Source of the DNA: Wenzhouxiangella marina
Lineage (GTDB): Bacteria; Pseudomonadota; Gammaproteobacteria; Xanthomonadales; Wenzhouxiangellaceae
Length of the DNA: 64,000 bases
NCBI RefSeq assembly: GCF_001187785.1
Contig: NZ_CP012154.1
Coordinates: 1,420,501 to 1,484,500, forward strand
Reading direction: 5' to 3'
Both the position numbers and the translations under genes were made by a program. Shown piece by piece: positions 10,806 through 44,954 of the stretch. Within the stretch, counting starts at the first letter, position 1, and each line of letters begins with the position of its first letter. A model generated the notes under the pieces. The model was not told the DNA's origin. It worked only from the letters and a program-made list of their open reading frames with translations, and made no database searches.

Positions 10806-13800
10806 TCAGGGGACGACCGTACAGCTGCCCGGTGTGACCAGCGCGGCCGTGGAGAAGGCGTCGGTGATCGTGTTGGTGGCCAGCAGATGGGCCTCGGAGT
10901 TCGCGCAGGCGCCGCCACAGTCGGTCACTCCGCTCTCCAGCAGCATGGCGCCTCCGGGATCGGTGAAGTCATCGAGCAGGATGTCATCACGAGTTCCCGA
11001 GGCCACGCCCGTATTGCCCCGAACGTTCATGCAGGTCACGGTGTCGCGGTCTCCGAGCCAGCCGATGGCCTCGTTGTTGGGGTTGGCGGCCGTGCCGCTC
11101 ACGGTCAGCGAATTGTTGGTAATGGTCAGGTCGGCCGTGGCCGCGTCGCCCAGGGCATCGCCGATGATTCCGTCGATCGCCTGTCGGGTGGTGTTGGCCG
11201 TGTTGCCGTCGATCTCCAGCACCATCGCCCCGTCGCCGCGACCATCGATGCCGATCGCGCCGCCGGAGTTGATGAAGGTGTTGTTGTTGATCCGACCCGA
11301 CAGGAGCGCGCTGTTCGTCGAGGTCGACACCAGGGTGAGGTTGATCGCTTCTTCGCCGACGTTGGGCGAGAAGTTCTCGAACAGGTTCGGCAGGGTCGTG
11401 CCGATATCGAAGCTGATGCGGGCACTGGTGGCCGCAGAAAGGACGATGCCCCGTGCGGCGACGCTGCCGCCGGGCGAGGCATCCAGCGTCGAGAGGAAGT
11501 CCGTGTCGTCGACGGTCAGGCTGGCCTCGGAGTTGTCCAGGGCATTGATCTGGATGCCGTCACTGCGGTTGTCGAGGAAGGTCGATCCGGTGACGATCAC
11601 ATCGGCCGATGCCGAGTTGCGGGTCTCGAGCAGCAATCCGTCCGCGCCAAGCACCGCACTGTTGGTGGAGAGCGTGCTGTTCGAGATCGTCAGCGGCGAC
11701 AGCGTGCCCGAGACGTTGGTGATCTCGATGTTGTGCTCGGCCGAGCCGCTGATCGTCGTGTTCGAAATCGTGGCTGCCCCCAGCAGGTCCTCGAAGCGCA
11801 GTCCGCCTTCGTCCACCGCATCCCCATTGTTCGTGATCAGCGAGTTGCTGAGCGTGAAGTTGGTGACGGTCTGACCGAAGATGCCGTTGACGTCACTGCC
11901 CGAGATCTCGAAAGAGTTGAGCGTGACGTTCTCCGCGCTGGTCAGGCGGACCGCATCGCCCGTGCTGTTCGGGATCTGACCGTCGAGCACGTTCAGGCCG
12001 ACGCCCGTCGTGTTGGTCAAGCGAATGCCGTTGACCGAATTGAAGGCCTGGAGATTCGAGCTTCGGATATTGATCACTCCACCGGTCAGATCGAGGGCAG
12101 GCCCGGCGTCCACCGTGAACGGGCCCGGATTGGGCGCGCCGGGGCTGGTCGGGCTGTTGACGGTTCCGATGTTCAGGGTGCCGAAATTGTTGCCGAAGAC
12201 CAGCGGTCCGTTGCGGCCGTTCAAGCCGTTCGAGACGTCCTCGATGGTCCACACGCCCGGGGTGTTGGTCAGGGAGATGGCGCCGCCCGATTCGCCCGCA
12301 TCGCCGTGGCGCGTGTACAGGGACTCGACGGTAAATCCGCTCGAGGTCGTGTCACTGATGTCGATGCAGTGGTTGTCGGGGCCCAGGTCGCCGTCGCAGA
12401 GGACGCGGAAGCGATTCATCGCCACGTTGCCGCTGACCCGACTGGCGATGGCCGGCACGCCGAGCGTAGTGCTGTCGACGTAGTTGAAGGCAATGACATT
12501 CGCCGTGCCCGTGTTCTCCAGGTAGATCGTCTCGGCCGTCGCCAGCTGGCCTGCCGGGTTGGCGCCGGTGATGATGGCGCCGCCGAAGGTGATCGGCCCC
12601 GAGCCGCCGACGATCTCGATCGTGCGGAAGGCAATGTTCGAACCCGACGCCACGGTGTGCGTGATGTTGCCGGCGTAGTTGATGGCCATCGTGCTGCTGT
12701 TGACGCGGAAGGGAACGCCCTGGATGCTCCGGATCGAGGAGCCTGCGTCACTGATGGTCAGGCTGCCGTCGCTGCCGTTCTCGATGCTGATGCCGGCGGT
12801 GCCGCTCGTGAGCTCGAAGGTGGCTCCGAAGCTGATGGTGCCGTCGGCGTTGCTCAGGAACAGGCCGGCTCCGCTGCCGGTGCCCCGGATCACGGGCGAA
12901 GACACGGTCAGCGATGCGGTGGAGTTGCGGATATCGAAGACATTGCCGTTGGCGTTGTAGATGATGCCGCCCGGCGTGGTGTCGGTGATGGTCCCGCTGA
13001 TGCCGTTCAGGGCAATGACCGACACGCCGTCGCTGCTGACACTCGAGCTCATGCGACCCAGCGTGGCGTTGATCGTGCCGCCGTTCTGGAGGTTGAACAC
13101 GCCGCCGTTGTTGAAGGTGGACACATCGCTGATGGTGGTCGTACCGATGTTGACGCCGCTGTCGGCGAAGGCGTAGCCAGCGGTCGAGTCGACCCAGAAG
13201 CCGCGCACGGTGTTGTTGCTGGCAATGTCGAAGGCGTCGTCGCCGGTGGTTCGGATCTGCGTCGGGTTGCCTTCCGCGCTGGCGGCGAAGCTGTTGTAGG
13301 CCGCACTGGTGCTGCCGGTGGCGGTGTAGACCGTGTCGAACTGCACCGTGCCGCCGTAGATCGACTGGCCGCTGCGGAGATTGAATCCGTCGGCCTCGTT
13401 GTAGAAGCCGGGGAAGTCATTGAAGACGTAGATCACGTCGCCATCGGCGGGGTTGTTGCCCGTCCCGTCATTGACCGCATTGAACGCGGCAATGCTGAGG
13501 AACGGATCGGCGAAGGTCCCGAGGTTGTTGCCGACACCTCCGCGATCGATGAACCAGGCGATGGTGCCGCCATCGGTGTTCAGACTGACGGTCGCCGTGC
13601 AGTTGGCCGTGACCTGGCCGAAGCCGTTCGAGATCGCGTAGCTGAAGCTGTCGGCGCTGGCGCCGGCCACGCCGGCGGGCGGACTGTAGTTGAAGCTGCC
13701 GTTGGCGTTCAGCGTGACGAAGCCACCGTTGGTCGTGGCCACCCGGCTCCCTACGTTGGCCGCGCTGCCCATGGACTGGGTGACGGTGATGTTGCTGCCG

Positions 13801-16800
13801 CTGTCGTTGGCCAGGACGCCGGCGACCGAGTTGATGTCGAAGTCGATGTTGGCGGTGCCCGTGAAGGTATCCGCGGTGCAGGACGGTCGATTGCCCACGG
13901 CCAGGGTGACCAGGGCATCGCTCGAGCCGACGCTGTTGCTCAGGCGGTACTCGAAGGCGAACAGGCCGACGTAGCCGGTCGGCGGCGTGAAGTTGTAGGT
14001 CCCGTTGGCATTCACCACCAGGCTGCCACTGGCGTAGTTGGGCAGCGGGCTGACCGTGGTGCCCTGGGCATTGCTCGTGACCGTGCCGAAGGGCGGGTTG
14101 AAGCCACCGCTGCCGTCGTTGGTCTGGATGGTACCGAAGCTGGCGATGGTCGCTGCCGGAGTCCCCAGGACGTCGTTGCTGTCGAGGTCTTCCGGCGAGC
14201 CGTCGGCCGGTGCCAGTGCGACGTCAAGGGCCGTGTGGAAGGCATCGCCCGGCGTGCTTCCGGCAGCCGCGAGATCATCGTTGGCGGTGGGGGCCTGTTC
14301 GACAACGATCGTGATGGTCGCGTCACTCGATCCGGCCGCGTTGGCCAGGCGGTAATCGAAGCTGTAGCTGCCGGCCGTGCTCGTTCCCGACAGGGTCAGC
14401 GAGCCATCGGCAAAGACCGAGAGCGCGCCGCCGGCAAGACCGGTGCTGCTGCCCGCCGGATTGCTGGTGACCGTGCCACCCAGATCGCCGCCACCGAAGC
14501 TCTGGACATTGGCCAGTGGTGAGCCGCGATCATCGGCGCCGAAGCCGTTGTCGGCGAACAGGGCGCCCGCGGGGAGCGTCAGCGGGTCGCCGACCGCCAC
14601 GTTGAAGCTGTCCGCATTGGCGACCGGGATCGCCTGGACCTGAATGGTCACGGTGGCGATGCCGCTGCCGACGCTGTTGCTGAGCTGGTACTGGAAGCTG
14701 TAGTCGCCGGTCGTCGTCGCACCGGTCAAGTCGAGCGTGCCGAGGCTGTCGATGTTCAGGGTCCCGCCCGCCAGGCCGATGGTGCTGCCTGCCGGATTGT
14801 CCGTGACCGAGCCACCGAGGTCGCCGGCACCGAAGCTCAGCGAGGTGAACGGCGGGGTGCCGATGTTGTCGACGCCGCTGCCGTTGTCCGCGGTCAGGTC
14901 CACGTTCAGGACGTTGCCGATGACGACCGCCAGATCATCGTCCCGGGGCGCCGGTGCCTCGACGATGTCGATCGTCACGGTGGCGACGCTGCTACCGCTG
15001 GCATTGGTGATCTGATAGTCGAAGGCATAGCTGCCCGCGCTGACGCCACCGGCCGTTGCATCGACCGTGAGCGAGCCGCCAGCCTGAATGCTGACCGTGA
15101 AGCCGCCAATCGGATGGGTGTAGAGGCCAGGCGCTACCACCTGCGAGGCGCCCCCGATGTCGCCGCTGTCGGCATAGACATCGACGACGGCCGCGGGTGC
15201 GCCGGGGTCATCGTTGCTCAGCACCGACAGGCTCGAATCGACGCTGCCCAGGGCGACGTCCAGGGTGTCGGCCACCGCGACGGGGGCACGGTCGATGTTG
15301 ATGATCTGCGCCGCACTGCCGGTGGCATTGTCGTCGTCGGCGACGCTCACCTGCGCGATGCGTGCCGTAGTGTCGCCCGAACTGGTGGTGAACTGGAGGG
15401 CGCGCAGCAGGGCTTCGGTCGCGATCTGATCGGCGTTCGTGTCGAGATCGACCCGGAACGGGGTCTGGGTGCCGGTGCCCGCATCCAGGCAGGCCCAGGC
15501 CTGGACCAGCGTGCTGATCGGCGTGCCTTCGAAGCTCACGGTCGAGCCGTCGAAGCCGATCTGACCGGCCCCGCCGCCCTGATTTTCGATCGTCAAAGTA
15601 TCGAGGGGATCACAGGTCCCGCCGATGTCCAGCGTGGCTTCGACCCGGTTGAACTGGTTGGAATCGATGTCCGTCAGCGTCGCTGCCGGATCGAGGGTCA
15701 CCGGTCCGACCCCGGCATCGAAGCTTGCGCCGGCAGTCGGGAAGCTCACGGTGGGCGGGTCGTTGACGCAGACCACCGTCACGGCCACGGTCGCGGTCGA
15801 GCCACCCGGCGCCAGGGTGTAGCTGAAGTCGTCGGTCGGGCTGCCGTCGTTGCAGGCATCCGGGTCGGGCTGGTAGGTCAGCCCACTGCCGCCACCGATG
15901 ATCACCACGGTGCCGTTGGCGGGCTGGGTGGCCATGGCGATGCTGATCGGGCCGCCGTCGATATCGACATCATTGGCCAGCACATCGATGGCCTGGGCCG
16001 AATCGTCTTCGTTGACCGTGGCCGTGTCGTCCACGGCCAGCGGCGCATCGTCCAGCGGGTTCACGGTGATCGTGAAGGTCTGCACGGGGCTGGTGTCGGT
16101 GCCGCCGTTGGCCGTGCCGCCATCGTCCTGGACCGCGACGTCGAAGGTCGAAGTACCAGAGGCGTTCGGGGCCGGCGTGTAGCTCAGGTTTCCGGCCACA
16201 TCGACGCTGGGTGCAGCGCTGAACAGGCTCGGGTCGGAGACGCCGGTGACGAGGTAGGCCAGTACGGATTGTCCACCCTCGTTCGGACCCGGGTCGAAAT
16301 TCGTCACCCAGCCATTGACCGTCTGGGCGCCCGCGTCCTCGTTCACGGCGGGTGGGTTGCTGGCGGTGAATGACGGTGCGTCGTTGACGGCCACGATGGT
16401 GATCGCGACATTGGCCGTGGCACAGGCGGCCGGCGTCGGTGTGCCGTCGTCGCAGACCTCGTAGCTCAGGGAATCACTGCCGTTGAAGTCCGCGGCCGGC
16501 GTGTAGGTGATGGCACCCGTGATCGGATCGACGCTGGTGCTGCCATTGCCTGGTGCTGCCGTGATGGTGACCGTGGCCGGGTCCGGATTGCCATCGATGT
16601 CGCTGTCGTTAGCCAATACGTCGATCACGACCTGCGTGTTTTCGTCGGTCGACGCGAGGTCATCGCTGGCCACGGGAGGATCGTTGACGGGATTGATCGT
16701 CAGCGTGACCGTGGCCGGGTTCGAATCGCTCTGGCCGTCGTTGGCCAGGTAGCTGAAGCTGTCGCTGCCGTTGAAGTCCGGGCCGGGCAGGTAGTCGAAG

Positions 16801-21251: not shown

Positions 21252-22074
21252 AGGACCGGAGATGTATCGCGTGGCCCGCCGCGTCGAGCAGGCGCTGGGT
21301 CAGGCGCCGCTCGAGGAGGTCTGGTTTGCCTTCGAGCGCCTGCAGTGCGAGTCGCCACGGCTGCAAGGCCAGCGCCTCAAGGGCGTTCGCACGCTCGGCA
21401 AGGCCCTGCTGATCGAATTCGAGGGCGGTGAAACGATCTATACGCACAACCAGCTCTACGGGCGCTGGATGTTCTCGGATCCTGATCGGCGTCCGGACAC
21501 GGGGCGTCAGCTCCGTCTGGCCCTGAGCACCGAGAAATGCTCGGCCCTCCTGTACAGTGCCAGCGAGATCGAATTGATCGAACCGGGGGAACTGGAAGCT
21601 CATCCCTTTATTCGCCGAGTGGGCCTGGACGTGCTGTCCGACGAGGCCGATGTCGATGCCATCGAGCGCTGGATCGGCCGCCCCGAGTTCGCTGGTCGTC
21701 GCCTCGGCCATCTGCTCCTCGATCAGCGCTTTCTGGCCGGCGTCGGGAACTACCTTCGTTCTGAAATCCTGCATCAGGCCGGCCTGGACTGGCGTCTTCG
21801 TCCTGTCGATCTCGATCCGGTTCAGCGGCAGGCGCTGGCGAGCAGCGTGTATGGTCTGATGTGGCGTTCAGTGGACACGGGCGGCATCACCAATGCCCCC
21901 GAGCGCGTGGCAGAGCTGAAGCGGGCGGGCTGGAAGCGTCGGGATTACCGACATTTCGTATTTTCGAGGGCTGGACAGGCCTGCTTTCTCTGCGGCGGTG
22001 AGATCGAAAAGCTCACGGTCAGCGGTCGACGCCTGTATCGTTGCGCCCAGTGCCAGCCGGAGCCGTCATCATGA
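21244..22074 (+). CDS. nei: Endonuclease VIII, oxidised-pyrimidine DNA glycosylase/AP lyase
   Basis: A 276-residue protein starting MPEGPEMYRVARRVEQAL, whose Pro2-Glu3 supply the catalytic amine and acid of the Fpg/Nei family. The conserved lysine is in LGKALLIEF, LYTHNQLYGRW-like YTHNQLYGRWMF follows, then the helix-two-turn-helix LLLDQRFLAGVGNYLRSE. The C-terminal zinc finger is CFLCGG and CAQC. The LYSASEIELI and YTHNQLYG stretches match Nei rather than MutM. It removes oxidised pyrimidines and cuts the strand. The start overlaps the DUF423 stop, and its own TGA overlaps the next ATG (ATGA), so all three are one transcript. Confidence 0.95.
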   Translation: MPEGPEMYRVARRVEQALGQAPLEEVWFAFERLQCESPRLQGQRLKGVRTLGKALLIEFEGGETIYTHNQLYGRWMFSDPDRRPDTGRQLRLALSTEKCSALLYSASEIELIEPGELEAHPFIRRVGLDVLSDEADVDAIERWIGRPEFAGRRLGHLLLDQRFLAGVGNYLRSEILHQAGLDWRLRPVDLDPVQRQALASSVYGLMWRSVDTGGITNAPERVAELKRAGWKRRDYRHFVFSRAGQACFLCGGEIEKLTVSGRRLYRCAQCQPEPSS

Positions 22075-22424
22075 AGTTGCTCGAACGCTATGAATTCGCC
22101 GAGGAAGCGCAGGAGCGCGCTGCATTCCTGCGCTCGCGCGGCATTGCCGCCCACGTGGAGTCCTTGACTGCCCTGCGGCCGGCAGCAGCCCATCGCAACC
22201 TCTACCACGCCGCGCTCTGGGCGATCCTCGACCATCAGGCTGACGATGCCGAGGCCCTCTTGAAGGATCCCGATCACCTCGTCCGCGACCCGCTCGACGA
22301 GCGCGAGATGAACGAACTGATCGAAGTCGGCGGCGACCAGGCCCGACGCACCATGATCAAATGGGGCCTGATCGCCCTGGCCGGCCTGCTCGCCCTGGCG
22401 ATGGCACTTCCGCTCTTGTTTTGA
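22071..22424 (+). CDS. Small DUF2007-like protein with C-terminal membrane helix
   Basis: A 117-residue protein coupled to nei by an ATGA overlap. The N-terminal half (YEFAEEAQERAAFLRSRGI) resembles the start of DUF2007 'signal transducing' proteins, which handle exposed protein surfaces. The end is a single membrane helix (WGLIALAGLLALAMALPLLF). The family match is tentative. The last 45 bp (22380-22424) have been copied twice downstream inside the tandem array (23037-23081 and 23372-23416), so this gene is one source of the duplication. Confidence 0.6.
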   Translation: MKLLERYEFAEEAQERAAFLRSRGIAAHVESLTALRPAAAHRNLYHAALWAILDHQADDAEALLKDPDHLVRDPLDEREMNELIEVGGDQARRTMIKWGLIALAGLLALAMALPLLF

Positions 22425-22436
22425 AGGCTTTTGGGG

Positions 22437-22543
22437 AACCGCAGATTACGCAGATGCACACAGATTGGAAAGGCACAGAGCAAGAGAGAACTGTTTCGAT
22501 CCAGCCTTTCTTGGATCTGCGCGAATCTGCGTAATCTGTGGTT
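22437..22543. repeat. Palindromic repeat element, copy 1
   Basis: The ends AACCGCAGATTACGCAGAT and ATCTGCGTAATCTGTGGTT are inverted copies with one mismatch; about 69 bp lies between. The core also carries near-inverted ACAGATTGGAAAGG and CCTTTCTTGGATCTG. It starts 12 bp after the stop at 22424. Such dispersed 'CAGATTACGCAGAT' elements occur in many bacterial genomes; I cannot name the family. Confidence 0.88.
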
Positions 22544-22570
22544 GAAAAATTTCCTCGAACCAAGGGCAGC

Positions 22571-22736
22571 CTAGAACATGCCGGTGGCCTTTAGCTTGCG
22601 GTACTGGCTGACCAGGGCGCCGGCGAGCTGGTCGGGGCGCAGGTCGAGGTGGATGATGCCGAGCTGGCGCAGCTTGCGCGTGGCGGCCTGGCGTTGTGCG
22701 CGATACAGGGAGTTGCCGGCCTGGAGCAGGGCCGAT
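22571..22736 (-). pseudogene. Partial copy 1 of the DUF58 gene 3' end
   Basis: 166 bp match the real gene end 23563-23728 and would encode its last residues ending KATGMF (the intact gene ends KATGVF). It lacks a start and most of the gene. It joins the next unit abruptly after GGGCCGAT, with no long homology at the junction. Confidence 0.88.
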
Positions 22737-22758
22737 CTTGTTTTGAAGGCTTTTTGGG

Positions 22759-22865
22759 AACCGCAGATTACGCAGATGTACACAGATTGGAAAAGCACAG
22801 AGCAAGAGAGAAGTGTTTCGATCCAGCCTTTCTTGAATCTGCGCGAATCTGCGTAATCTGTGGTT
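22759..22865. repeat. Palindromic repeat element, copy 2
   Basis: Same inverted ends as copy 1, with small differences in the core (for example TGTACAC in place of TGCACAC and AAGTGTTTC in place of AACTGTTTC). Units 1 and 2 share the KATGMF version of the neighbouring gene fragment. Confidence 0.88.
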
Positions 22866-22892
22866 GAAAAATTTCCTCGAACCAAGGGCAGC

Positions 22893-23045
22893 CTAGAACA
22901 TGCCGGTGGCCTTTAGCTTGCGGTACTGGCTGACCAGGGCGCCGGCGAGCTGGTCGGGGCGCAGGTCGAGGTGGATGATGCCGAGCTGGCGCAGCTTGCG
23001 CGTGGCGGCCTGGCGTTGTGCGCGATACAGGGAGTTGCCGGCCTG
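22893..23045 (-). pseudogene. Partial copy 2 of the DUF58 gene 3' end
   Basis: 153 bp of the DUF58 gene end, finishing in GCCGGCCTG, where the sequence switches to the end of the nei-linked gene. Like copy 1 it encodes KATGMF. Confidence 0.88.
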
Positions 23046-23081
23046 CTCGCCCTGGCGATGGCACTTCCGCTCTTGTTTTGA
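23037..23081 (+). repeat. Copy of the 3' end of the gene at 22071-22424 (first)
   Basis: Matches 22380-22424, including the stop codon. It begins in the 9-bp GCCGGCCTG shared with the DUF58 fragment, which points to a microhomology joint. Confidence 0.88.
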
Positions 23082-23093
23082 AGGCTTTTGGGG

Positions 23094-23200
23094 AACCGCA
23101 GATTACGCAGATGTACACAGATTGGAAAGGCAAAGAGCAAGAGAGAAGTGTTTCGATCCAGCCTTTCTTGAATCTGCGCGAATCTGCGTAATCTGTGGTT
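23094..23200. repeat. Palindromic repeat element, copy 3
   Basis: Same inverted ends. It is followed by GAAAAAATTCC rather than the GAAAAATTTCC of copies 1 and 2, a shared variant with copy 4. Confidence 0.88.
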
Positions 23201-23227
23201 GAAAAAATTCCTCGAACCAAGGGCAGC

Positions 23228-23380
23228 CTAGAACACGCCGGTGGCCTTTAGCTTGCGGTACTGGCTGACCAGGGCGCCGGCGAGTTGGTCGGGGCGCAGG
23301 TCCAGGTGGATGAAGCCGAGCTGGCGCAGCTTGCGCGTGGCGGCCTGGCGTTGTGCGCGATACAGGGAGTTGCCGGCCTG
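23228..23380 (-). pseudogene. Partial copy 3 of the DUF58 gene 3' end
   Basis: 153 bp of the DUF58 end, here in the KATGVF version of the intact gene but with extra substitutions (for example ATGAAGCCG for ATGATGCCG). It ends in the same GCCGGCCTG joint. Confidence 0.88.
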
Positions 23381-23416
23381 CTCGCCCTGGCGATGGCACT
23401 TTCGCTCTTGTTTTGA
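23372..23416 (+). repeat. Copy of the 3' end of the gene at 22071-22424 (second)
   Basis: Second copy of 22380-22424, with the same 9-bp joint and two substitutions (TTTCGC for TTCCGC; TGAGGG for TGAAGG). Confidence 0.86.
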
Positions 23417-23428
23417 GGGCTTTTTGGG

Positions 23429-23535
23429 AACCGCAGATTACGCAGATGTACACAGATTGGAAAGGCAAAGAGCAAGAGAGAACTGTTTCGATCCAGCCTT
23501 TCTTGAATCTGCGCGAATCTGCGTAATCTGTGGTT
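23429..23535. repeat. Palindromic repeat element, copy 4
   Basis: The last copy, 27 bp from the stop codon of the intact DUF58 gene. On the leftward transcript it can fold into a long imperfect stem, so it may protect or end the operon's mRNA; that role is inferred. Confidence 0.86.
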
Positions 23536-23562
23536 GAAAAAATTCCTCGAACCAAGGGCAGC

Positions 23563-24938
23563 CTAGAACACGCCGGTGGCCTTTAGCTTGCGGTACTGGC
23601 TGACCAGGGCGCCGGCGAGCTGGTCGGGGCGCAGGTCCAGGTGGATGATGCCGAGCTGGCGCAGCTTGCGCGTGGCGGCCTGGCGTTGTGCGCGATACAG
23701 GGAGTTGCCGGCCTGGAGCAGGGCCGATTCGAGCTTGAGTGGGCGTCCATCGGCCGGGCCTTCGAGCTCGTCCAGGGACTCGCGGAGATCGGCCAGCACG
23801 ACCAGATGACGCTGCCGCATCAGGGACAGGGCCGGGTCCAGGTCCTCATGGTCTTCGTCGCGCAGATTGGTCAGCAAGACGACCAGACTGCGTCGGCGCT
23901 CGCTGCGCATCAGGTCGCCCGCGGCGCCGAGAAAGTCCGGATGGCCCAGGCCGGCGTCCAGATCGTAGACCGTCTCGAGCAGGGCGCCGAACTGGCGCTG
24001 ACCGCGCCCGGCCGGCAGGCGGCGCTCGCGGCCATCGGCGGCCGCCAGGGTCTGGAGACTGACCTCGTCACCCTGTTTCAGCGCCACATGGGCCAAGAGC
24101 AGCATGGCGTTGAGGCAGCGATCGAAGTGGCTCAGGCCGTCATCCTGGATGCGCATGCGGCGAGAACAGTCGAGCAGGAAGACCACGCGCTGGTTGCGTT
24201 CTTCCTGGTAGTCCTTGGCGATCAGCTTGCGCATGCGTGAGGTGGCGTGCCAATCGACCTGGCGGAGGCTGTCGCCTTCCCGATAGTCGCGCAATTGATG
24301 GAAATCGGAACCGCTGCCGCGACGCTGCTGCTGGTGAATGCCCAGCGCCTGCAGGCGCCGGTCACCCGCGAGGCGGCCGTACTGCACGACCAGGTTGAAG
24401 TTGGGGTAGACGCGGATCGGATCGCGTCGCTCCAGGTGGATTCGTCGGGACCAGAACCCTAGCGGGCTCTGCCAGGCCAGGTGGATGCCATCCAGCGCCA
24501 TGGCGCCCCGATGCCGGGCCGTGGCGCGCCAGAACAGCCGGTGACGCTGGCCCGGCTGCAGGGTCTGGACCTTCGGCAGGCCCTCGCTGCGAATGGAGCC
24601 GGGGTGCAGGTCGTGGATCATGGCCTCGATGCTGCGTGTGCCTCGATGGGCAATTTCGGTCTGGACGGTGACGGGTGCGTCGACGGGCCAGCGCTCGGGC
24701 AGGTGGCGGGTCACTTCGAAGCCCGGGCGCTCCCTGAGCAGTCGAAGCGCATCGATCAGCGCGATGATCGCGATCAGGACGCCGATGCCCATCCAGGTGC
24801 TGATCACGCCGCTCGCGGCCCCGAACCAGTAGCACAGGGCGCCGATCAGCCACCAGGCCAGCAGCAGTCCGAGCAGACGCCCGGCCGGTCGAACGAGGCC
24901 GCGGGGCATTCTCGAGTCGGCGATGTCGGGATGCTCGC

Positions 24939-24942
<4 letters not shown>
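23563..24942 (-). CDS. DUF58 (vWA-like) protein of the MoxR operon
   Basis: A 459-residue protein. GTG 24942 overlaps the MoxR stop (GTGA); ATG 24909 is the alternative. Two membrane helices lie at the N-terminus ([35 protein letters not shown]). The DUF58 signature [21 protein letters not shown] is followed by an [12 protein letters not shown] segment, the metal-site-like DxS strand of a von Willebrand A fold. Partner of the MoxR ATPase coded just upstream; such pairs act as metal or cofactor insertion and folding machines. Its last 55 codons occur in three extra partial copies downstream. Confidence 0.9.
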
Positions 24943-25925
<983 letters not shown>

Positions 25926-34603: not shown

Positions 34604-35539
34604 ATGTCACGCGATGCCCATGCACCGCCCGAGCTCACCTACACCGGGCTGAAACTGGACCGAAGCCCCGCCCTCAGGGAGAGGGAGGACTGGCTGGAGG
34701 CCAGCCTTGCGCATCCCGACGCGCGCGTTCTGCCGGTCTGGCAGGCCCGGAATCTGGTCGAACATCGGGATGGACGGCCCGTGCCGGCGGCTCGGCTGGA
34801 TGATCTCGAGCGGGCCAGCGAAGTGCTGTTGCTGGGCATGGCGGGCGAGGCGCCGGTGCTCGCTGCCGATCTTTCGGACCTGGAGCGCGAGGACGCCGAC
34901 GCACTGACCGGTTCCTATGATTTTGTCGATCTGCGCAAGATCGGCGCGACGCTGGGTCGTGAAGACGCGGCCTTGCTCAGCTATGCCAGGGGACTGGTCC
35001 ACTGGCATCGAGCCCATCGGCACTGCGGGGTCTGCGGTCAGCCCACGGTCAGTGGACGCGCTGGCATGGTCAGGACGTGCTCGGACCCCGCCTGCGCTCA
35101 GCCGACCTTCCCGCGTATCGACCCGGCCATCATCGTTCTTGTCGAAGACCCGGAGACGGACCGCTGCCTGCTGGGCCGCGCCGCCGGCTGGCCGGGCGGC
35201 GTGTACTCGACCCTGGCTGGCTTCGTCGAGCCGGGTGAGTCACTGGAAGAAGCCGTGGCGCGTGAAGTGAAAGAGGAATCGGGGATCGACGTGGACTCGG
35301 TGCGCTACCTCGCCTCCCAGCCCTGGCCCTTTCCCTCGTCCATGATGCTCGGCTTCCAGGCCCGCGCCCGAAGCACGGCGATTACCCGCCACGACGAAGA
35401 GCTGGAGGACGCGCGCTGGTTCAGCCGCGAGGAGCTGCAATCAGCCGGCACCTGGGGCGAAGACGCCGAAATCTGTCTGCCACGCGAGGACTCGATCGCC
35501 CGCTATCTGATCGAGCAATGGCTAAATTCGCAGGGCTGA
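34604..35539 (+). CDS. nudC: NAD+ (NADH) pyrophosphatase / RNA decapping Nudix hydrolase
   Basis: A 311-residue enzyme that cuts NADH or NAD caps. Start ATG 34604 (MSRDAHAPPELTYTG) is favoured; GTG 34595 and an ATG at 34496 are in frame. A zinc ribbon has HCGVCGQPT and CSDPACAQPTFPR. The Nudix box is GFVEPGESLEEA followed by REVKEESG. SQPWPFPSSMML is the NudC signature just after it. The last 72 bp (35468-35539) have a partial copy at 37007-37078, beyond the HEAT gene. This is covered in the repeat entries. Confidence 0.95.
   Translation: MSRDAHAPPELTYTGLKLDRSPALREREDWLEASLAHPDARVLPVWQARNLVEHRDGRPVPAARLDDLERASEVLLLGMAGEAPVLAADLSDLEREDADALTGSYDFVDLRKIGATLGREDAALLSYARGLVHWHRAHRHCGVCGQPTVSGRAGMVRTCSDPACAQPTFPRIDPAIIVLVEDPETDRCLLGRAAGWPGGVYSTLAGFVEPGESLEEAVAREVKEESGIDVDSVRYLASQPWPFPSSMMLGFQARARSTAITRHDEELEDARWFSREELQSAGTWGEDAEICLPREDSIARYLIEQWLNSQG
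35468..35539. repeat. Direct repeat, left copy: 3' end of nudC
   Basis: 72 bp, coding ICLPREDSIARYLIEQWLNSQG and stop (22 residues, given here only as its start ICLPRED and end WLNSQG in the functional sense). It matches 37007-37078 at 62 of 72 positions. The last ~20 bp differ most: this copy is A/T-richer (GCTAAATTCG) than the right copy (GTTGGCGGGG). Confidence 0.88.
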
Positions 35540-35551
35540 GCCGGGCAAGCG

Positions 35552-36880
35552 CTATTCCTCACAGTTGGCCATCCGCATCCGTCCTGCCTCGTCGAGACCG
35601 ATCCGGCCGGCACTGGTGTGAATGATCAGGTCGCCTGAATCCTCTTGCCAGGACCACCGGGGACGTCCCGGGAGGCCTCGCCAGAAGCGGGCGACCCAGT
35701 GCCCACGCGAGTTGCGACTAAGCCGGAAAACCGCGCCGTGGTCGCTGTACTCCTGAACAAGAGCAATAAAAGCGCTGCCGAAGCGATGGATGAATCTCAC
35801 GCCGGCCCATAGCAGAATCTTCTGGTCTCCGTTCTCATCGAAATAAACCAGCTCCCCGCCCCATTCGCCGCGGTCACTCCCTCCCAGCCATCCACCTTCG
35901 ACGGGGACGACGAAACGCGGAGCGACAGGCCGCTCTAGCTGATCTTCAGGATGGTTCCTGATCTCGAGATGGAGCCCAGGAACCTTGACGATGTCATGGG
36001 GATCCTTCGCGATAAATGGCGTCTTGATGATGGCAGTCTCTGAATCGGGCCAAAGATCGCAGGGTTCTATTTCCGATCCGATTGCTTCATTACTGTTGAA
36101 GTCGATAGCCCAGTCATAAACATCGCGGCGTAGAGGTACGTAGACCGAGGCCCCGTTCAGGCTCTGAATCGCCTGAGCTGCAGCTTGTCGCACGGGTGGA
36201 TACCAATGGTCAGTTGCCGCTGCTTCGAGTGCGTTCAGTGCTCCAAGGTCGGCGATTCGTCCCAACGCATGCGCCGCGTTCCAGTTCAATACGACATCGC
36301 TCGGAGAATCAAGCGCCTCCAGAAGCGCGGACAGGGATGCGGGGCTGCCGATAAATCCAAGCGTGCGTGCGGCGAGAAGCCGGGACTCACGATGAACCGA
36401 CCGGCGTAATACCTCGATCAGGGCTGGCTCGGCAGCGACGGCTTCCCGTCCAATCGCTGATAAGGATCGTGCCGTGAAGAAACCAAAAGGCAGGTGTTCC
36501 TGACTCGCATCGCTCTCCAGGGCTTGCAAGATCTCTTCGTTGACGAGCTGGGCGGCGAGCGGCGAACGGATCGCCAGCAGGACGCGGAGCATATCCTGCA
36601 TGATGTCCGGCCTGCGCTCTGCGATTTCCATCAGTCGCTTGTCGGCCTGCTTCGCCGAGGGGCCTAGGCGCAGAAAGCCTGCGAGGGTCGGCCAGGCATT
36701 CCCTTGCTCCGTCTCTTCGAGCCTTTCAAGAAGATCAAGTGCCCTGGCAAGACCATCGGCCGGAGGTTCAGCCGACCGAAATTTTCGGCCAATTTGCTTG
36801 CTGGTCGCCTCAATGGTGCCACTCGATACGAGCGCCAGTGTCAAAACGAAAGCGATCAGACGACCAAGCGTCCCAGCCAT
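35552..36880 (-). CDS. Secreted HEAT-repeat protein, probably inserted at the nudC end
   Basis: A 442-residue protein. ATG 36880 has GGAG 8 bp before it. It begins with a signal peptide (LIAFVLTLALVSSGTIEA). Residues ~40-250 contain HEAT repeats (LAARTLGFIGSPASLSALLEAL, NWNAAHALGRIADLGALNAL). From ~255 to the end the sequence is beta-rich without a family I recognise (GGWLGGSDRGEWGGELVY, VARFWRGLPGRPRW). Its base composition is visibly more A/T-rich than its neighbours. It is bracketed by two copies of the nudC 3' end, so it looks acquired. Confidence 0.72.
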   Translation of the reverse strand: MAGTLGRLIAFVLTLALVSSGTIEATSKQIGRKFRSAEPPADGLARALDLLERLEETEQGNAWPTLAGFLRLGPSAKQADKRLMEIAERRPDIMQDMLRVLLAIRSPLAAQLVNEEILQALESDASQEHLPFGFFTARSLSAIGREAVAAEPALIEVLRRSVHRESRLLAARTLGFIGSPASLSALLEALDSPSDVVLNWNAAHALGRIADLGALNALEAAATDHWYPPVRQAAAQAIQSLNGASVYVPLRRDVYDWAIDFNSNEAIGSEIEPCDLWPDSETAIIKTPFIAKDPHDIVKVPGLHLEIRNHPEDQLERPVAPRFVVPVEGGWLGGSDRGEWGGELVYFDENGDQKILLWAGVRFIHRFGSAFIALVQEYSDHGAVFRLSRNSRGHWVARFWRGLPGRPRWSWQEDSGDLIIHTSAGRIGLDEAGRMRMANCEE

Positions 36881-37006
36881 GCAAGTGCTCCAGATTCCCC
36901 GAGCCTCACTCTAGCGTTTCAAGGCAACTTCCGTCCATTTTGCCAGCCAGCGATACTTGATCCCGATTCAGACAAACTCTGGCGCCAGGTACCGAGGCGC
37001 GGGCAC

Positions 37007-37078
37007 GAAATCTGTCTACCACGCGAGGACTCGATCGCCCGCTATCTGATCGAGCAGTGGTTGGCGGGGCAGGGTTGA
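37007..37078. repeat. Direct repeat, right copy: orphan 3' end of nudC
   Basis: 72 bp in the gap between the HEAT gene and the desaturase gene, matching nudC codons from EICLPRED to IEQWLAGQG and the stop. No nudC coding sequence precedes it, so it is a remnant. The remainder of the 211-bp gap (36881-37006) holds no gene I can support. Confidence 0.88.
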
Positions 37079-37091
37079 CGCAGCATCCTGG

Positions 37092-38174
37092 TCACGCGGG
37101 AGCCAGCGGTCGATTTCTGGTGGGCCAGGCGTGGACCACGATGCGCTTCAACACCGAGAAATACTGGCGCCAGAAACCGGCGGTGTTGTAGTGAATGCGG
37201 TAGCGCTCGCAGATGGCGCGTACCCGGGGTGCGATTTCAGGGTAGCGTGAGGCCGGCATGTCGGGAAACAGGTGGTGCTCGATCTGATGGCTCAGATGGC
37301 CGCTCAGCACGTGGAACCAGCGCCCGCCCTCCAGGTTGCTCGAGCCCAGAATCTGGCGCAGGTACCACTGACCCCGGGTTTCGTTTTCCGTTTCCTTTCG
37401 GGTGAAGGTCTGGGCGTTTTCCGTGAAGTGGCCGCAGAAGATGATGGCGTTGGTCCAGAGATTCCGAATCCCGTTGGCGGCCAGGTTGCCGAGCAGCACG
37501 CGCGGCCACTGCCAGAACGCCAGGGCCGGGAAAAAGACGTAGTCCTTGAAGAGCTGGCGGGCGGCCTTCCTGAGAAACGGTCTGGATCGTCTCCCCAGTT
37601 CGGTGCGACTCATGCGGCCCTTGAAGAAGCGGCCGAGCTTGATGTCGTGAATGGCCACGCCCCACTGGAACAGCAGCGCGAGCAGCAGGTACCAGATCGG
37701 CTGGAGCAGGGTGGCTGGTCGCCAACGCTGTTCGGGTGTCAGGCGAAGCATGCCGTAGCCGTAGTCGTGGTCCTTGCCGAGGATATTGGTGTGGACATGA
37801 TGCTCGACGTTGTGCGAATTGAGCCAGTGCTCGCGGGCGCAGACGATGTCCCAGTCGTAGGTCTGCGAGTGCAGCGACGGGTCGTTCATCCAGTCGTACT
37901 GGCCGTGCAGGACGTTGTGCCCGATCTCCATGTTCTCGAGGATCTTGGCATGGGCCAGGGCGATCACGCCGAGCAGCCAGCTGATCGGCCCCCAGCCGAA
38001 CATCAGTAGTCCCCGCCCAGCCACAGCACTGCCTTGAGCGCGGCGAACGATTCTCCGGATGTGATCGGCATCGCGGGCCCCGAGGTCGTCGGAAATTTCA
38101 GCGCGCAGCGCATCGAGTTCGCCGGCGAGTTCGTCGAGTCTGGCCCTGGATGGGCGACTTTGAGCATCGTTCAT
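37092..38174 (-). CDS. Membrane fatty-acid (acyl-CoA) desaturase, DesB-like
   Basis: A 360-residue di-iron desaturase. ATG 38174 has AAGGAA before it. Histidine boxes are GHNVLHGQYDW, SHNVEHHVHTN and SHQIEHHLFPDMP, in the order and spacing of membrane desaturases (HxxxH, HxxHH, HxxHH). Membrane segments lie near residues 55-80 and 185-215. It should introduce a double bond into acyl-CoA or acyl-lipid chains. The reductase that feeds it electrons is coded just upstream in the same direction, and the TetR-type repressor diverges from that. The desB-reductase-desT arrangement in Pseudomonas aeruginosa is a close parallel. Confidence 0.88.
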   Translation of the reverse strand: MNDAQSRPSRARLDELAGELDALRAEISDDLGARDADHIRRIVRRAQGSAVAGRGLLMFGWGPISWLLGVIALAHAKILENMEIGHNVLHGQYDWMNDPSLHSQTYDWDIVCAREHWLNSHNVEHHVHTNILGKDHDYGYGMLRLTPEQRWRPATLLQPIWYLLLALLFQWGVAIHDIKLGRFFKGRMSRTELGRRSRPFLRKAARQLFKDYVFFPALAFWQWPRVLLGNLAANGIRNLWTNAIIFCGHFTENAQTFTRKETENETRGQWYLRQILGSSNLEGGRWFHVLSGHLSHQIEHHLFPDMPASRYPEIAPRVRAICERYRIHYNTAGFWRQYFSVLKRIVVHAWPTRNRPLAPA

Positions 38175-42510: not shown

Positions 42511-42525
42511 ATAGTGTTCGCCTAT
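42511..42525. promoter_or_regulatory. Possible OxyR half-site upstream of katG
   Basis: ATAG-N7-CTAT, the outer frame of one OxyR half-site, at about 135 bp before the katG ATG. The inner t/a positions of the consensus are not matched, and no second half-site at the right spacing is seen. CTAT-N3-ATAG overlaps it on the left. Weak on its own; katG is a standard OxyR target. Confidence 0.25.
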
Positions 42526-44954
42526 AGCTGAGGCTCATCTGCGAGGTCGGCTTCGAAGCGATCCCGAAACAAGCCGGTTTCGTCGTCCTCGATGAGAATC
42601 AGTAGCTGCTGAGGAACGCCGGGCAGGGCATCGCCATCGAGAATGGTCAGCCTCAGGCCGAACTGCTCAATGCCTTCCGCTTGCGAGTCATTGATCAGGA
42701 CGATCGGAATCTCTTGGGCCTGACTTTCGCCATCTGCCCAGGTCATGACCTGATCGATCGCGATGAAATCCATGCCGGCGCTGGCCGAGTCATCGATGGA
42801 CTGCACACGGACCTCCACTGACCCGGCAAAACCGACCGTTCGCTGCAGGGTCGCGGCCAGCGGGCCGGTGTCCTCACCGGCGAAGATCACCGCGCTGGCG
42901 AAAGCGATCTCGCCGCCCAGGGCCTGGGGCGGCTGGCAGCTGACCTCTACATTGTCCACGTCGCCGCCACTGACCGGACCACTGGCATTGTTGATCAGGC
43001 AGGTCTGGGCCGGCGCGGTCGGGGGCGTCTGAACGCTGACCGAGTAATTGCTGTTGTCGGCCACGGGTTCGGGAAACTGGAAGCTGCCATCGGCGGCAAT
43101 CGCAAGGCTCTGTTCACCATTGAGCTCGAGCACCAGGCCCTGGCCGACGAGGCCGGTGACCGTGCCGCCGATGCGTCGGGCGAGGCGGCACTGGACCTGC
43201 ACGTCGTCGACGTCGGCGCCGTTGATGCTGCCGCTTTCGTTGAGTACTCGGCAGACCTGCGCCGGGCTGTCCGGGCGAGTGTCGATGCTGACCAGATAAT
43301 CGCTGCCATTGAAGAGGGGGCGTGGAAAGACGAAGGGGCCGTTGCTGGCGATGGAAAGGAGATCGCCAGCGTTGTTGGCGAGCACCAGCCCTTGTCCGCT
43401 GAGGCCGCTGACGCTTCCTCCGAGCGCATGTCGAACGAGAGCGTAGCTGTAGGCGGCGCCGGCGGAATCGGCCGAGTTGTCGTTGGCGTTCCCGTTGATG
43501 CCCGTGGCGGCCGAGTCTTCGTTACCGGTCGATACCACCACGTAGCCGTCGCCGATCGTCGTGCCGAGGCCGAAGGTGTCGCTTGGGTCGGTGTTGATGG
43601 CCTTGAAGTAGTTGAGCTGGCGCCAGCCCTGGGCGTCGCGTTCGAACAGGTAGGCGGCGCCGGCGCCTTCGGCGCTGTCATCGGACTGATTGCCACCCGG
43701 GCCGGCCGAAGCGCTGTCCTCGGACAGAGCGGACACCAGCAGGACCTGGTCTTCGAGATCGAGGTGTTCACCGAAGCGATCGCCGGCGCCGGGGTTGGAG
43801 GCCTTGATGTAGGCCGTCTGTGTCCAGAGCGAGCCGAGGCGGTCGAAGATGTAGACGGCGCCGGCAGAAGGGGCGCTGTTGTCGAGTTGGTCTCCGTTGA
43901 TGCCGGTGGCGGCGCTGTTCTCACCGCGGGCACCGACGACGACGGTGAGGCCATCGATGGCCACATCGAAACCGAAAAAGTCCAGAAAGCCCGTGTTCGA
44001 AGCTTTCAGGTAGGCCACCTGGGACCAGAGTCCCTGATTGCGCTCGAACAGGTAGGCGGCACCGGCCCCGGAGGTGCTGTTGTCGCTCTCGTCGCCATTG
44101 ACGCCGGTGGCGCTGCTCGACTCGTCGTAGGCGCCGACCACGATGAGATCGCCATCGATGTCCACCGAATACCCGAAGCGATCATCGGCGTCCGTGTTCG
44201 AGGCTTTCAGATAGGCTTGCTGGGACCAGCTCGTGCCCTGGCGTACGAACACGTAGGCCGCACCGGCGTCCTCGGCCGTATTGTCGAAGGGGTTGCCGTT
44301 GACGCCGGATGAGAAGCTGTCTTCCTCGGGCATTCCCACCACCAGGGTGTCTCCGTCGAGCGCCAGGCGATGGCCGAATTCGTCGTTCTCGTTGACCGCC
44401 GCAGCCTTGAGATAGGCCTGCTGCGACCAGGTTCCGCTGCCATCCCGGACGAAGATGTATACGGCACCGGCTGCGGAGCTGTCGTTGCTCTGTTGATCGC
44501 CACCGACACCCGTTGCCGAACTGTCTTCCTGGATGGCGCTGACCGCGATCGTGTCGCCAGAAATCGCGACGGCATGGCCGAACCAGTCGCTGGTCTCGAT
44601 GTTGCTCCCTTCGAGCTTGCTGTCGAAGCTCCACTGGCCATTGGCATCGCGTTCGTATACGTAGGCTGCGCCCGAGGCCGGGGCAGCAGCGCTGTCCGCG
44701 AAGGCGGCGCCGACCACCAGCCAGTCACCGTCGCTGTCCACCGCATTTCCGAAGCGGTCGCCGGCCTGGGCATCGCTGGCCTTGATGTAGGCATCGAAGC
44801 TCAGGGGCAGGGCGGCGCCGCGTTGCTCGGCCGTGGCGGGGCTTGTCGCCAGCATCAGGGCGGCGATCAGGAGGGCAATGTCGGCGCTCGCCCGGATCGG
44901 GCGGGACGCAAACTGATGGGCGGGTTCTGCCGATTGACTTCGTGTCTGGCGCAT
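42522..44954 (-). CDS. Secreted FG-GAP/Calx-beta protein with FxDxFE tail
   Basis: An 810-residue protein with a long signal region (ADIALLIAALMLATSPATA). Seven FG-GAP-like units of ~57-65 residues follow, each with a K-A-S-N-x-x-x-x-D-x-F-G core and an EDSxATGxNG-like loop (e.g. AYLKASNTDADDRFG, VVGAYDESSSATGVNGDESD). Two ~70-residue units start GGSVSGLSGQGLVLAN and GGTVTGLVGQGLVLEL, each ending in a cysteine-containing VQVQCRL/VEVSCQP strand. A Calx-beta domain (FAGEDTGPLAATLQRT, AGMDFIAIDQVMTWADGE) comes next, then the tail LFRDRFEADLADEPQL. It is extracellular. It diverges from the beta-helix gene at 45113. Confidence 0.87.
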   Translation of the reverse strand: MRQTRSQSAEPAHQFASRPIRASADIALLIAALMLATSPATAEQRGAALPLSFDAYIKASDAQAGDRFGNAVDSDGDWLVVGAAFADSAAAPASGAAYVYERDANGQWSFDSKLEGSNIETSDWFGHAVAISGDTIAVSAIQEDSSATGVGGDQQSNDSSAAGAVYIFVRDGSGTWSQQAYLKAAAVNENDEFGHRLALDGDTLVVGMPEEDSFSSGVNGNPFDNTAEDAGAAYVFVRQGTSWSQQAYLKASNTDADDRFGYSVDIDGDLIVVGAYDESSSATGVNGDESDNSTSGAGAAYLFERNQGLWSQVAYLKASNTGFLDFFGFDVAIDGLTVVVGARGENSAATGINGDQLDNSAPSAGAVYIFDRLGSLWTQTAYIKASNPGAGDRFGEHLDLEDQVLLVSALSEDSASAGPGGNQSDDSAEGAGAAYLFERDAQGWRQLNYFKAINTDPSDTFGLGTTIGDGYVVVSTGNEDSAATGINGNANDNSADSAGAAYSYALVRHALGGSVSGLSGQGLVLANNAGDLLSIASNGPFVFPRPLFNGSDYLVSIDTRPDSPAQVCRVLNESGSINGADVDDVQVQCRLARRIGGTVTGLVGQGLVLELNGEQSLAIAADGSFQFPEPVADNSNYSVSVQTPPTAPAQTCLINNASGPVSGGDVDNVEVSCQPPQALGGEIAFASAVIFAGEDTGPLAATLQRTVGFAGSVEVRVQSIDDSASAGMDFIAIDQVMTWADGESQAQEIPIVLINDSQAEGIEQFGLRLTILDGDALPGVPQQLLILIEDDETGLFRDRFEADLADEPQL

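Follow-up and report, generated by a model that had tools for sequence, protein, structure and literature searches.

A duplicated nudC 3′ end flanks a single HEAT-repeat gene in Wenzhouxiangella marina

We analyzed a stretch of 64,000 nucleotides from Wenzhouxiangella marina (contig NZ_CP012154.1, positions 1,420,501 to 1,484,500; hereafter "the window"), in which an intact nudC gene is followed by a leftward gene for a HEAT-repeat protein, a second copy of the nudC 3′ end and a leftward desaturase-like gene (Table 1). The insert between the two copies consists of the 12 bp that separate the HEAT stop codon from that of nudC, the HEAT gene and a 125-bp leader. The PRK00241 match to nudC is given from position 34607, and the ATG at 34604 was read from the sequence. 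The right-hand neighbor is presumably a desaturase, given a weak DesB match (29 of 500 bits, below the cut-off).

Table 1. Coordinates of the features discussed (window positions, except for the last row, which refers to genome stretch L162)
Feature	Position	Strand	Remarks
nudC (NAD(+) diphosphatase), intact	34604..35539	+	PRK00241, 242.7 bits (cut-off 158); Pfam NUDIX, NUDIX-like, zinc ribbon
Left copy of nudC end	35467..35539	+	Reads ...LIEQWLNSQG stop; direct-repeat comparison
38 identical bases common to both copies	35480..35517 (left) = 37019..37056 (right)	+	Longest perfect stretch; a crossover would most likely lie here
HEAT-repeat gene, 442 aa	35552..36880	-	Pfam HEAT_2, E 1.8e-14 at residues 152-238; C-terminal domain unnamed
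HEAT gene leader, 125 bp	36881..37005		G+C 57.6%; its border at 37005/37006 would be the junction made by end joining, or the end of an element
Right copy of nudC end	37006..37078	+	Reads ...LIEQWLAGQG stop; without gene body
Desaturase-like gene	37092..38174	-	84-86% identity in two members of the genus; 13 bp separate it from the stop of the right copy
L162 copies	L162:11854-11951 and 16478-16575		End of DNDGDGFFDLDDFDC-repeat gene recurs 4.6 kb downstream

The duplication of the nudC end around the insert is real. The two copies have the same orientation and a spacing of 1539 bp, and they match at 63 of 73 positions, for which the chance is roughly 4e-26 per register (match rate 0.27). An earlier note on this DNA, whose count starts one base later, had reported that the last 72 bp of nudC recur 1.5 kb further on with 62 identities. 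A pattern for the 51-base core, in which two differing sites were given IUPAC letters, matches the window twice and shuffles not at all. Genome-wide there is no third strong copy of the region, the next best match to any part of it being 30 bases at 90%. Six short genome matches touch the right copy (17-32 bases, 81-100%, E 0.04 to 5.8), and the one of these that was examined, in L035, lies within a long open reading frame (ORF) and away from its end.

The differences between the copies form a mosaic. Only one of the ten falls in the first 51 positions, while nine fall in the last 22 (hypergeometric P = 4e-5); the last ~22 bases of nudC are a tail that differs from the second copy. Four of the six codon changes (left/right: CTG/CTA, CAA/CAG, CTA/TTG, AAT/GCG, TCG/GGG and GGC/GGT) are synonymous, and the same TGA stop ends both copies. 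Because the changes are mostly synonymous and the stop is shared, both copies look like the ends of nudC genes that once worked. Upstream of the copies we found no similarity in the 120 and 125 bases compared, with 462 of 500 shuffles scoring as high. Given that nothing upstream of 37006 is nudC-like, the right copy is a fragment and not a second gene. A search of the host's own genome likewise returned a single full nudC, besides the 24-residue copy and a weak Nudix match, so that a complete second nudC, which the earlier note had named as a finding that would refute it, can be dismissed. The same note saw an insert-like left tail and a host-like right tail. The left tail does contain codons that are rare in the host (within their families, CAA makes up 0.09 and CTA 0.01), yet the right tail is atypical too (TTG 0.05, GGG 0.14 and GGT 0.18).

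The HEAT gene has a G+C content of 59.4%, compared to 65.6% in a host sample. It is therefore low for this host, with 2.0% of 564 picked ORFs of at least 200 amino acids (aa) lower in G+C and 4.6% lower in third-position G+C, but it is not A/T-rich in absolute terms, as had been claimed. The gene is single-copy in its own genome. Pfam scans of the HEAT ORF and of ORF 36704-37078, which left out the opposite-strand ORF 36540-36914, revealed no known recombinase and no recognized transposase, and a simple scan found no promoter-like site for the HEAT unit. The first 25 residues of the protein resemble a signal peptide by eye, and the C-terminal ~130 residues are common to its homologs. Judging from the sequence, the protein is probably an exported scaffold. 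A single-sequence structure model (C-terminus mostly strands; mean pLDDT, the predicted local distance difference test, 41) was too poor and was unused.

Among 30 genomes of the genus, 15 of which reach 90% completeness with no more than 5% contamination, only the host's own genome has a match to the HEAT gene. When 398 genomes of the order were sampled, 21 of them, counting the host's own, matched at E 1e-6 or better; outside the host, the lowest E-value belongs to a match that is 35% identical across HEAT residues 55-441. In the class sample, at E 1e-15, the own genome is again the only one of 369. Both the low G+C content and the fact that no other of these genus genomes has a match are in line with an acquired gene. 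One relative is on a plasmid, namely a Catenovulum protein annotated as a HEAT repeat protein (31.6% identity). No relative was found in phages using tblastn, or in genome contigs or viral contigs using a pattern method that sees close relatives only. With neither a phage match nor a close viral-contig match, we rejected the idea that the HEAT gene is a phage gene.

We inspected the flanks (5.8 to 10 kb each) of eight HEAT homologs from genomes of the order (L064-L071). Four of these loci have no direct repeat of at least 30 bases around the homolog. In L066 a repeat pair is located on one side of the gene, and L071 has a tandem to one side. A 36-base pair (72%) spans the homolog in L068, and L069 has two pairs (33 bases at 73% and 31 bases at 77%), one copy lying within the homolog. 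None of the eight is bracketed by a repeat that approaches the 73 bases, 86% identity and 38-base perfect run of the nudC copies.

The nudC gene itself has a patchy distribution in the genus, with a match at E below 1e-30 in 10 of 25 genomes (own included), and the window nudC is 50-54% identical to its eight best relatives there. In a quick tree of 79 rows, it groups with the genus clade (support 93), at an open fork that also holds a Latescibacterota metagenome-assembled genome. In L057, L059 and L062, nudC directly precedes one shared neighbor gene, which we take to be ThrE-like, and in L063 one ORF lies between the two; this arrangement was not seen in L060 or L061. The host's own ThrE-like gene is in L172 (2.62-2.64 Mb), a stretch without any match in the nudC search. 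Therefore, the window nudC is not at the site seen in these four relatives. Genome G020 has nudC in tandem with the desaturase-like gene and downstream of it; G023 has the two on separate contigs, with another ORF after the desaturase-like gene. The spacer between the two genes in G020 contains a 279-bp element (L057:9444-9722) that resembles a miniature inverted-repeat transposable element, with terminal inverted repeats of ~26 bases (AAGGAACCTCTGAACAATT...).

We also asked whether nudC is used as a landing site elsewhere. Of 101 other loci, 99 were searched for a second copy downstream of nudC (L058 lacks nudC, and L088 was dropped for an incomplete match); counting the window, at least 9 kb of downstream sequence is available in 50 loci and at least 1.5 kb in 77. 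No duplicated nudC end comparable to that in the window occurs in the 99. Five have weak second-copy matches (22-67 bases, E 6e-4 to 0.01), versus E 3e-22 for the window. The host genome encodes six tyrosine-recombinase matches elsewhere, five of them above the family cut-off. Using these six recombinase-like proteins as BLAST queries, which would miss distant integrases, we found no integrase at nudC in the 101 loci (L058 included) or in the window, in agreement with the earlier note; the sole match was a query on its own locus, included as a control. The idea that the repeat core is used at other integration sites was rejected, because viral contigs contain no exact match to a 27-base pattern of the core. 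One search of a single open-licence library, which does not represent everything in print, found no paper joining nudC, an integration site and a genomic island.

Gene-end duplications were sought in other parts of the genome as well. Apart from tandem arrays and matches of 24-38 bases, a first look, which took in the window and 20 stretches with 386 gene ends in all, yielded nudC and L162. Dispersed direct repeats were then listed for 41 stretches, which total 864 kb (23.5% of the genome) and 726 picked ORFs. The two-copy pairs are nudC, L162, L165 and L166, the copies in L166 being close together. Set aside by eye were L163, L172 and L197, whose repeats are dispersed or simple, as well as the arrays of L173 and of window position 22380. 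In L162, 85 bases of a gene end are duplicated at 90.6% identity 4.6 kb apart, with a changed tail and the same stop, so the nudC duplication is not unique. An oligopeptidase A-like gene (213.9 bits, below the cut-off) and, by eye, a collagen-like gene lie between these copies. Of the 13 bases before the right L162 copy, 12 match the left copy's end, which hints that the copies may once have been in tandem. Genome G019, of which 21 stretches were sampled (420 kb and 396 ORFs), likewise contains dispersed short pairs (L198, L201, L206, L207, L208 and others). Short dispersed duplications are ordinary, at a few per megabase. We class the nudC case as one more of a known kind of insertion scar.

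Several other repeats were observed. In L165, 147 gene-interior bases are duplicated 4.6 kb away at 95% (L165:8105-8251 and 12695-12841). At window positions 22380-23715, the convergent 3′ ends of ORFs 22041-22424 and 23563-25176 have been amplified into four tandem copies of 335 bp, and each unit holds an inverted AATCTGCG/CGCAGATT motif. L173 (G000:C1:2800001-2820000) contains related tandem units of 396 and 463 bp, in two clusters ~6 kb apart. Exported-looking proteins in the window (42522-44954, minus strand), L162 and L165 have in common FxDRFE plus a few residues at their C-termini, which perhaps constitutes a putative C-terminal sorting signal.

How did the insert arrive beside nudC? 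The mosaic, with near-identity, an abrupt change in the last 22 bases and a conserved stop, together with the composition of the insert and the failure to find a match in other genus genomes, supports the reading that the insert brought its own nudC end. The earlier note had similarly pictured an incoming segment that carries its own gene end and restores the gene, which fits a mosaic with the stop kept in both copies. We tentatively favor a one-off acquisition, in which a donor circle carrying a nudC end of ~73 bases and the HEAT gene was integrated by one RecA crossover. The donor fragment would come from a related bacterium in which the nudC 3′ end is followed by the HEAT gene, and would have been trimmed and closed into a circle retaining only about 73 bases of nudC. 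This circle may then have integrated by one RecA crossover within the 38-base identical stretch (35480-35517). The product would be the host nudC with the donor tail, the HEAT gene, the joint, and the 73-base copy with the host tail. The nudC reading frame would be kept, and neither an integrase nor repeated mobility would be required. While we infer the circle, the crossover and the donor, the locus has the direct repeat at its borders and the perfect stretch of tens of bases (38) that a single crossover implies. A perfect stretch of this order should be enough for RecA.

This kind of event has a laboratory precedent. In a study in which E. coli received linearized DNA with a gene end, a PCR product diagnostic of a duplicated lacZ end was obtained from 56 of 60 selected clones, the 14 sequenced clones had 109-950 bp duplicated, and the authors' account is a circle without part of the gene end that integrates by a single crossover (PMC3240628). 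Ordinary one-crossover integration yields the same structure as seen here (PMC3240628), and a mobile cassette is not needed to explain the locus.

Several points weigh against a one-crossover acquisition. The right tail, too, contains rare codons. No donor in which nudC is followed by the HEAT gene was found in the genus, order or class samples. The empty site predicted by the earlier note, with nudC directly followed by the desaturase, was not found, the two other genus genomes that carry the desaturase-like gene (G020 and G023) having the arrangements described above. A homology of 73 bases is short for RecA. The genome encodes no Ku protein, although this is not decisive. Nor is the presence of a ComEC-type protein, which would be in its favor but says little because the same search is positive in 10 of 14 control genomes, E. 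coli included. Finally, a site-specific integrase would give the same picture.

This last point leads to an explanation that we rank second and regard as doubtful, namely that the insert is a cis-mobilizable element (CIME). Such a remnant would derive from an integrative element with a tyrosine integrase for which the nudC 3′ end served as attB. The copies would be attL and attR, and the integrase and most of the cargo would have been lost, or the integrase would act in trans. The anatomy matches such an element (PMC5704250) equally well: the attL/attR-like repeats leave the target gene end restored, no integrase or transfer genes were recognized inside, and HEAT is the only gene recognized (ORF 36540-36914 being left out of the scan). 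The repeat core also contains a 7-base inverted repeat with an 11-base spacer, as do 3% of 5000 random 55-mers from the window, and the genome has the six tyrosine-recombinase matches mentioned above. The CIME is placed second because no integrase was met at nudC in the 100 other nudC loci (six BLAST queries, of limited sensitivity) and because one remaining gene is little for an element. The 99 other nudC ends without a comparable duplication and the lack of an exact viral-contig match to the 27-base core pattern also speak against it. The tandem array in the same window raises a third-ranked and unlikely scenario, that the nudC end was first duplicated in tandem, the HEAT segment was inserted between the copies, and drift or partial gene conversion followed. 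The bases preceding the right L162 copy are what a tandem would leave, and the hexamer CGGGCA occurs just past the left nudC stop and just ahead of the right copy. However, a 6-base match is weak, the insert has no recognized transposase, and the differences are uneven (P = 4e-5). Simple duplication followed by drift was rejected because of this unevenness.

It is also quite improbable that the locus arose by homology-facilitated illegitimate recombination, in which one side of a linear fragment joins by homology at the nudC end and the other joins blindly a little further upstream in host nudC, so that 73 bases are duplicated. The final structure would be identical, and the process is known from three transformable species, but in the E. 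coli study its four assigned events all deleted host DNA, and duplications were put down to single crossovers (PMC3240628). The earlier note proposed a cassette that, needing no recombinase, would move repeatedly through its homology to the 3′ ends of genes. The structure itself and the second gene-end duplication in this genome, with its 4.6-kb interval, are in keeping with that idea, but mobility is unsupported and we give it the least credence of all: the HEAT gene is single-copy, its eight homologs lack a comparable bracketing repeat, the 99 other nudC ends are unused, no phage relative was found by tblastn and no close one in viral contigs, and the one plasmid relative is 31.6% identical. 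Scarcely more probable is the broader notion that short coding 3′ ends serve as portable landing pads in this lineage, where circles with a gene end of 70-85 bases would integrate repeatedly by homology and restore the gene, as an integrase-free route of single-gene gain (nudC and L162). Two further candidates were rejected. A diversity-generating retroelement confines differences to the adenines of one copy, but here they are not adenine-specific (A at 4 of 10 left-copy and 1 of 10 right-copy sites). An integron cassette would not lack attC at its ends, as this insert does despite an integron in the genome; the best match of the insert to the host integron region has E 0.094 and is within transposase-like genes.

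That integron is chromosomal and located in L218 (G000:C1:3637001-3657000), with an integron integrase (TIGR02249, 455.8 bits, cut-off 265). Beside the integrase, ~15 repeats extend from L218:3791 to 16516, some of them shortened, and three near-identical 363-aa transposase-like genes abut such repeats. We presume that the repeats are attC-like and that the transposase-like genes belong to the IS1111-attC type. A second, diverged integron-integrase-like gene (L156:1111-2118; G000:C1:664991-665998) scores 193.5 bits, below the cut-off of 265.

The nudC locus is a clean natural example of how a genome can gain a gene next to a housekeeping gene that stays intact, perhaps through nothing more than short homology. 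It also warns that not every gene-end duplication is an attachment site made by an integrase. If such scars were frequent and integrase-free across the genus, the capture of circles by short homology would be a measurable route of gene gain.

The locus can be compared to three known systems. Like an integron gene cassette, the insert has one gene as its unit and no promoter-like site in a simple scan, and its host carries an integron; unlike a cassette, it lacks attC at its ends, and its borders are coding nudC sequence. With a CIME, i.e., a decayed integrative and conjugative or integrative and mobilizable element with attL and attR, it shares the borders, the restoration of the gene end and the lack of recognized integrase or transfer genes, but it comprises one gene only, and no integrase was met at nudC in the loci tested. 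The single-crossover (Campbell-type) integration of a circle differs in that the laboratory case duplicated 109-950 bp (PMC3240628), versus 73 bp in this natural one, where the donor and event are inferred. In both cases, however, a partial direct duplication of a gene end flanks the insert and no site-specific recombinase is needed (PMC3240628).
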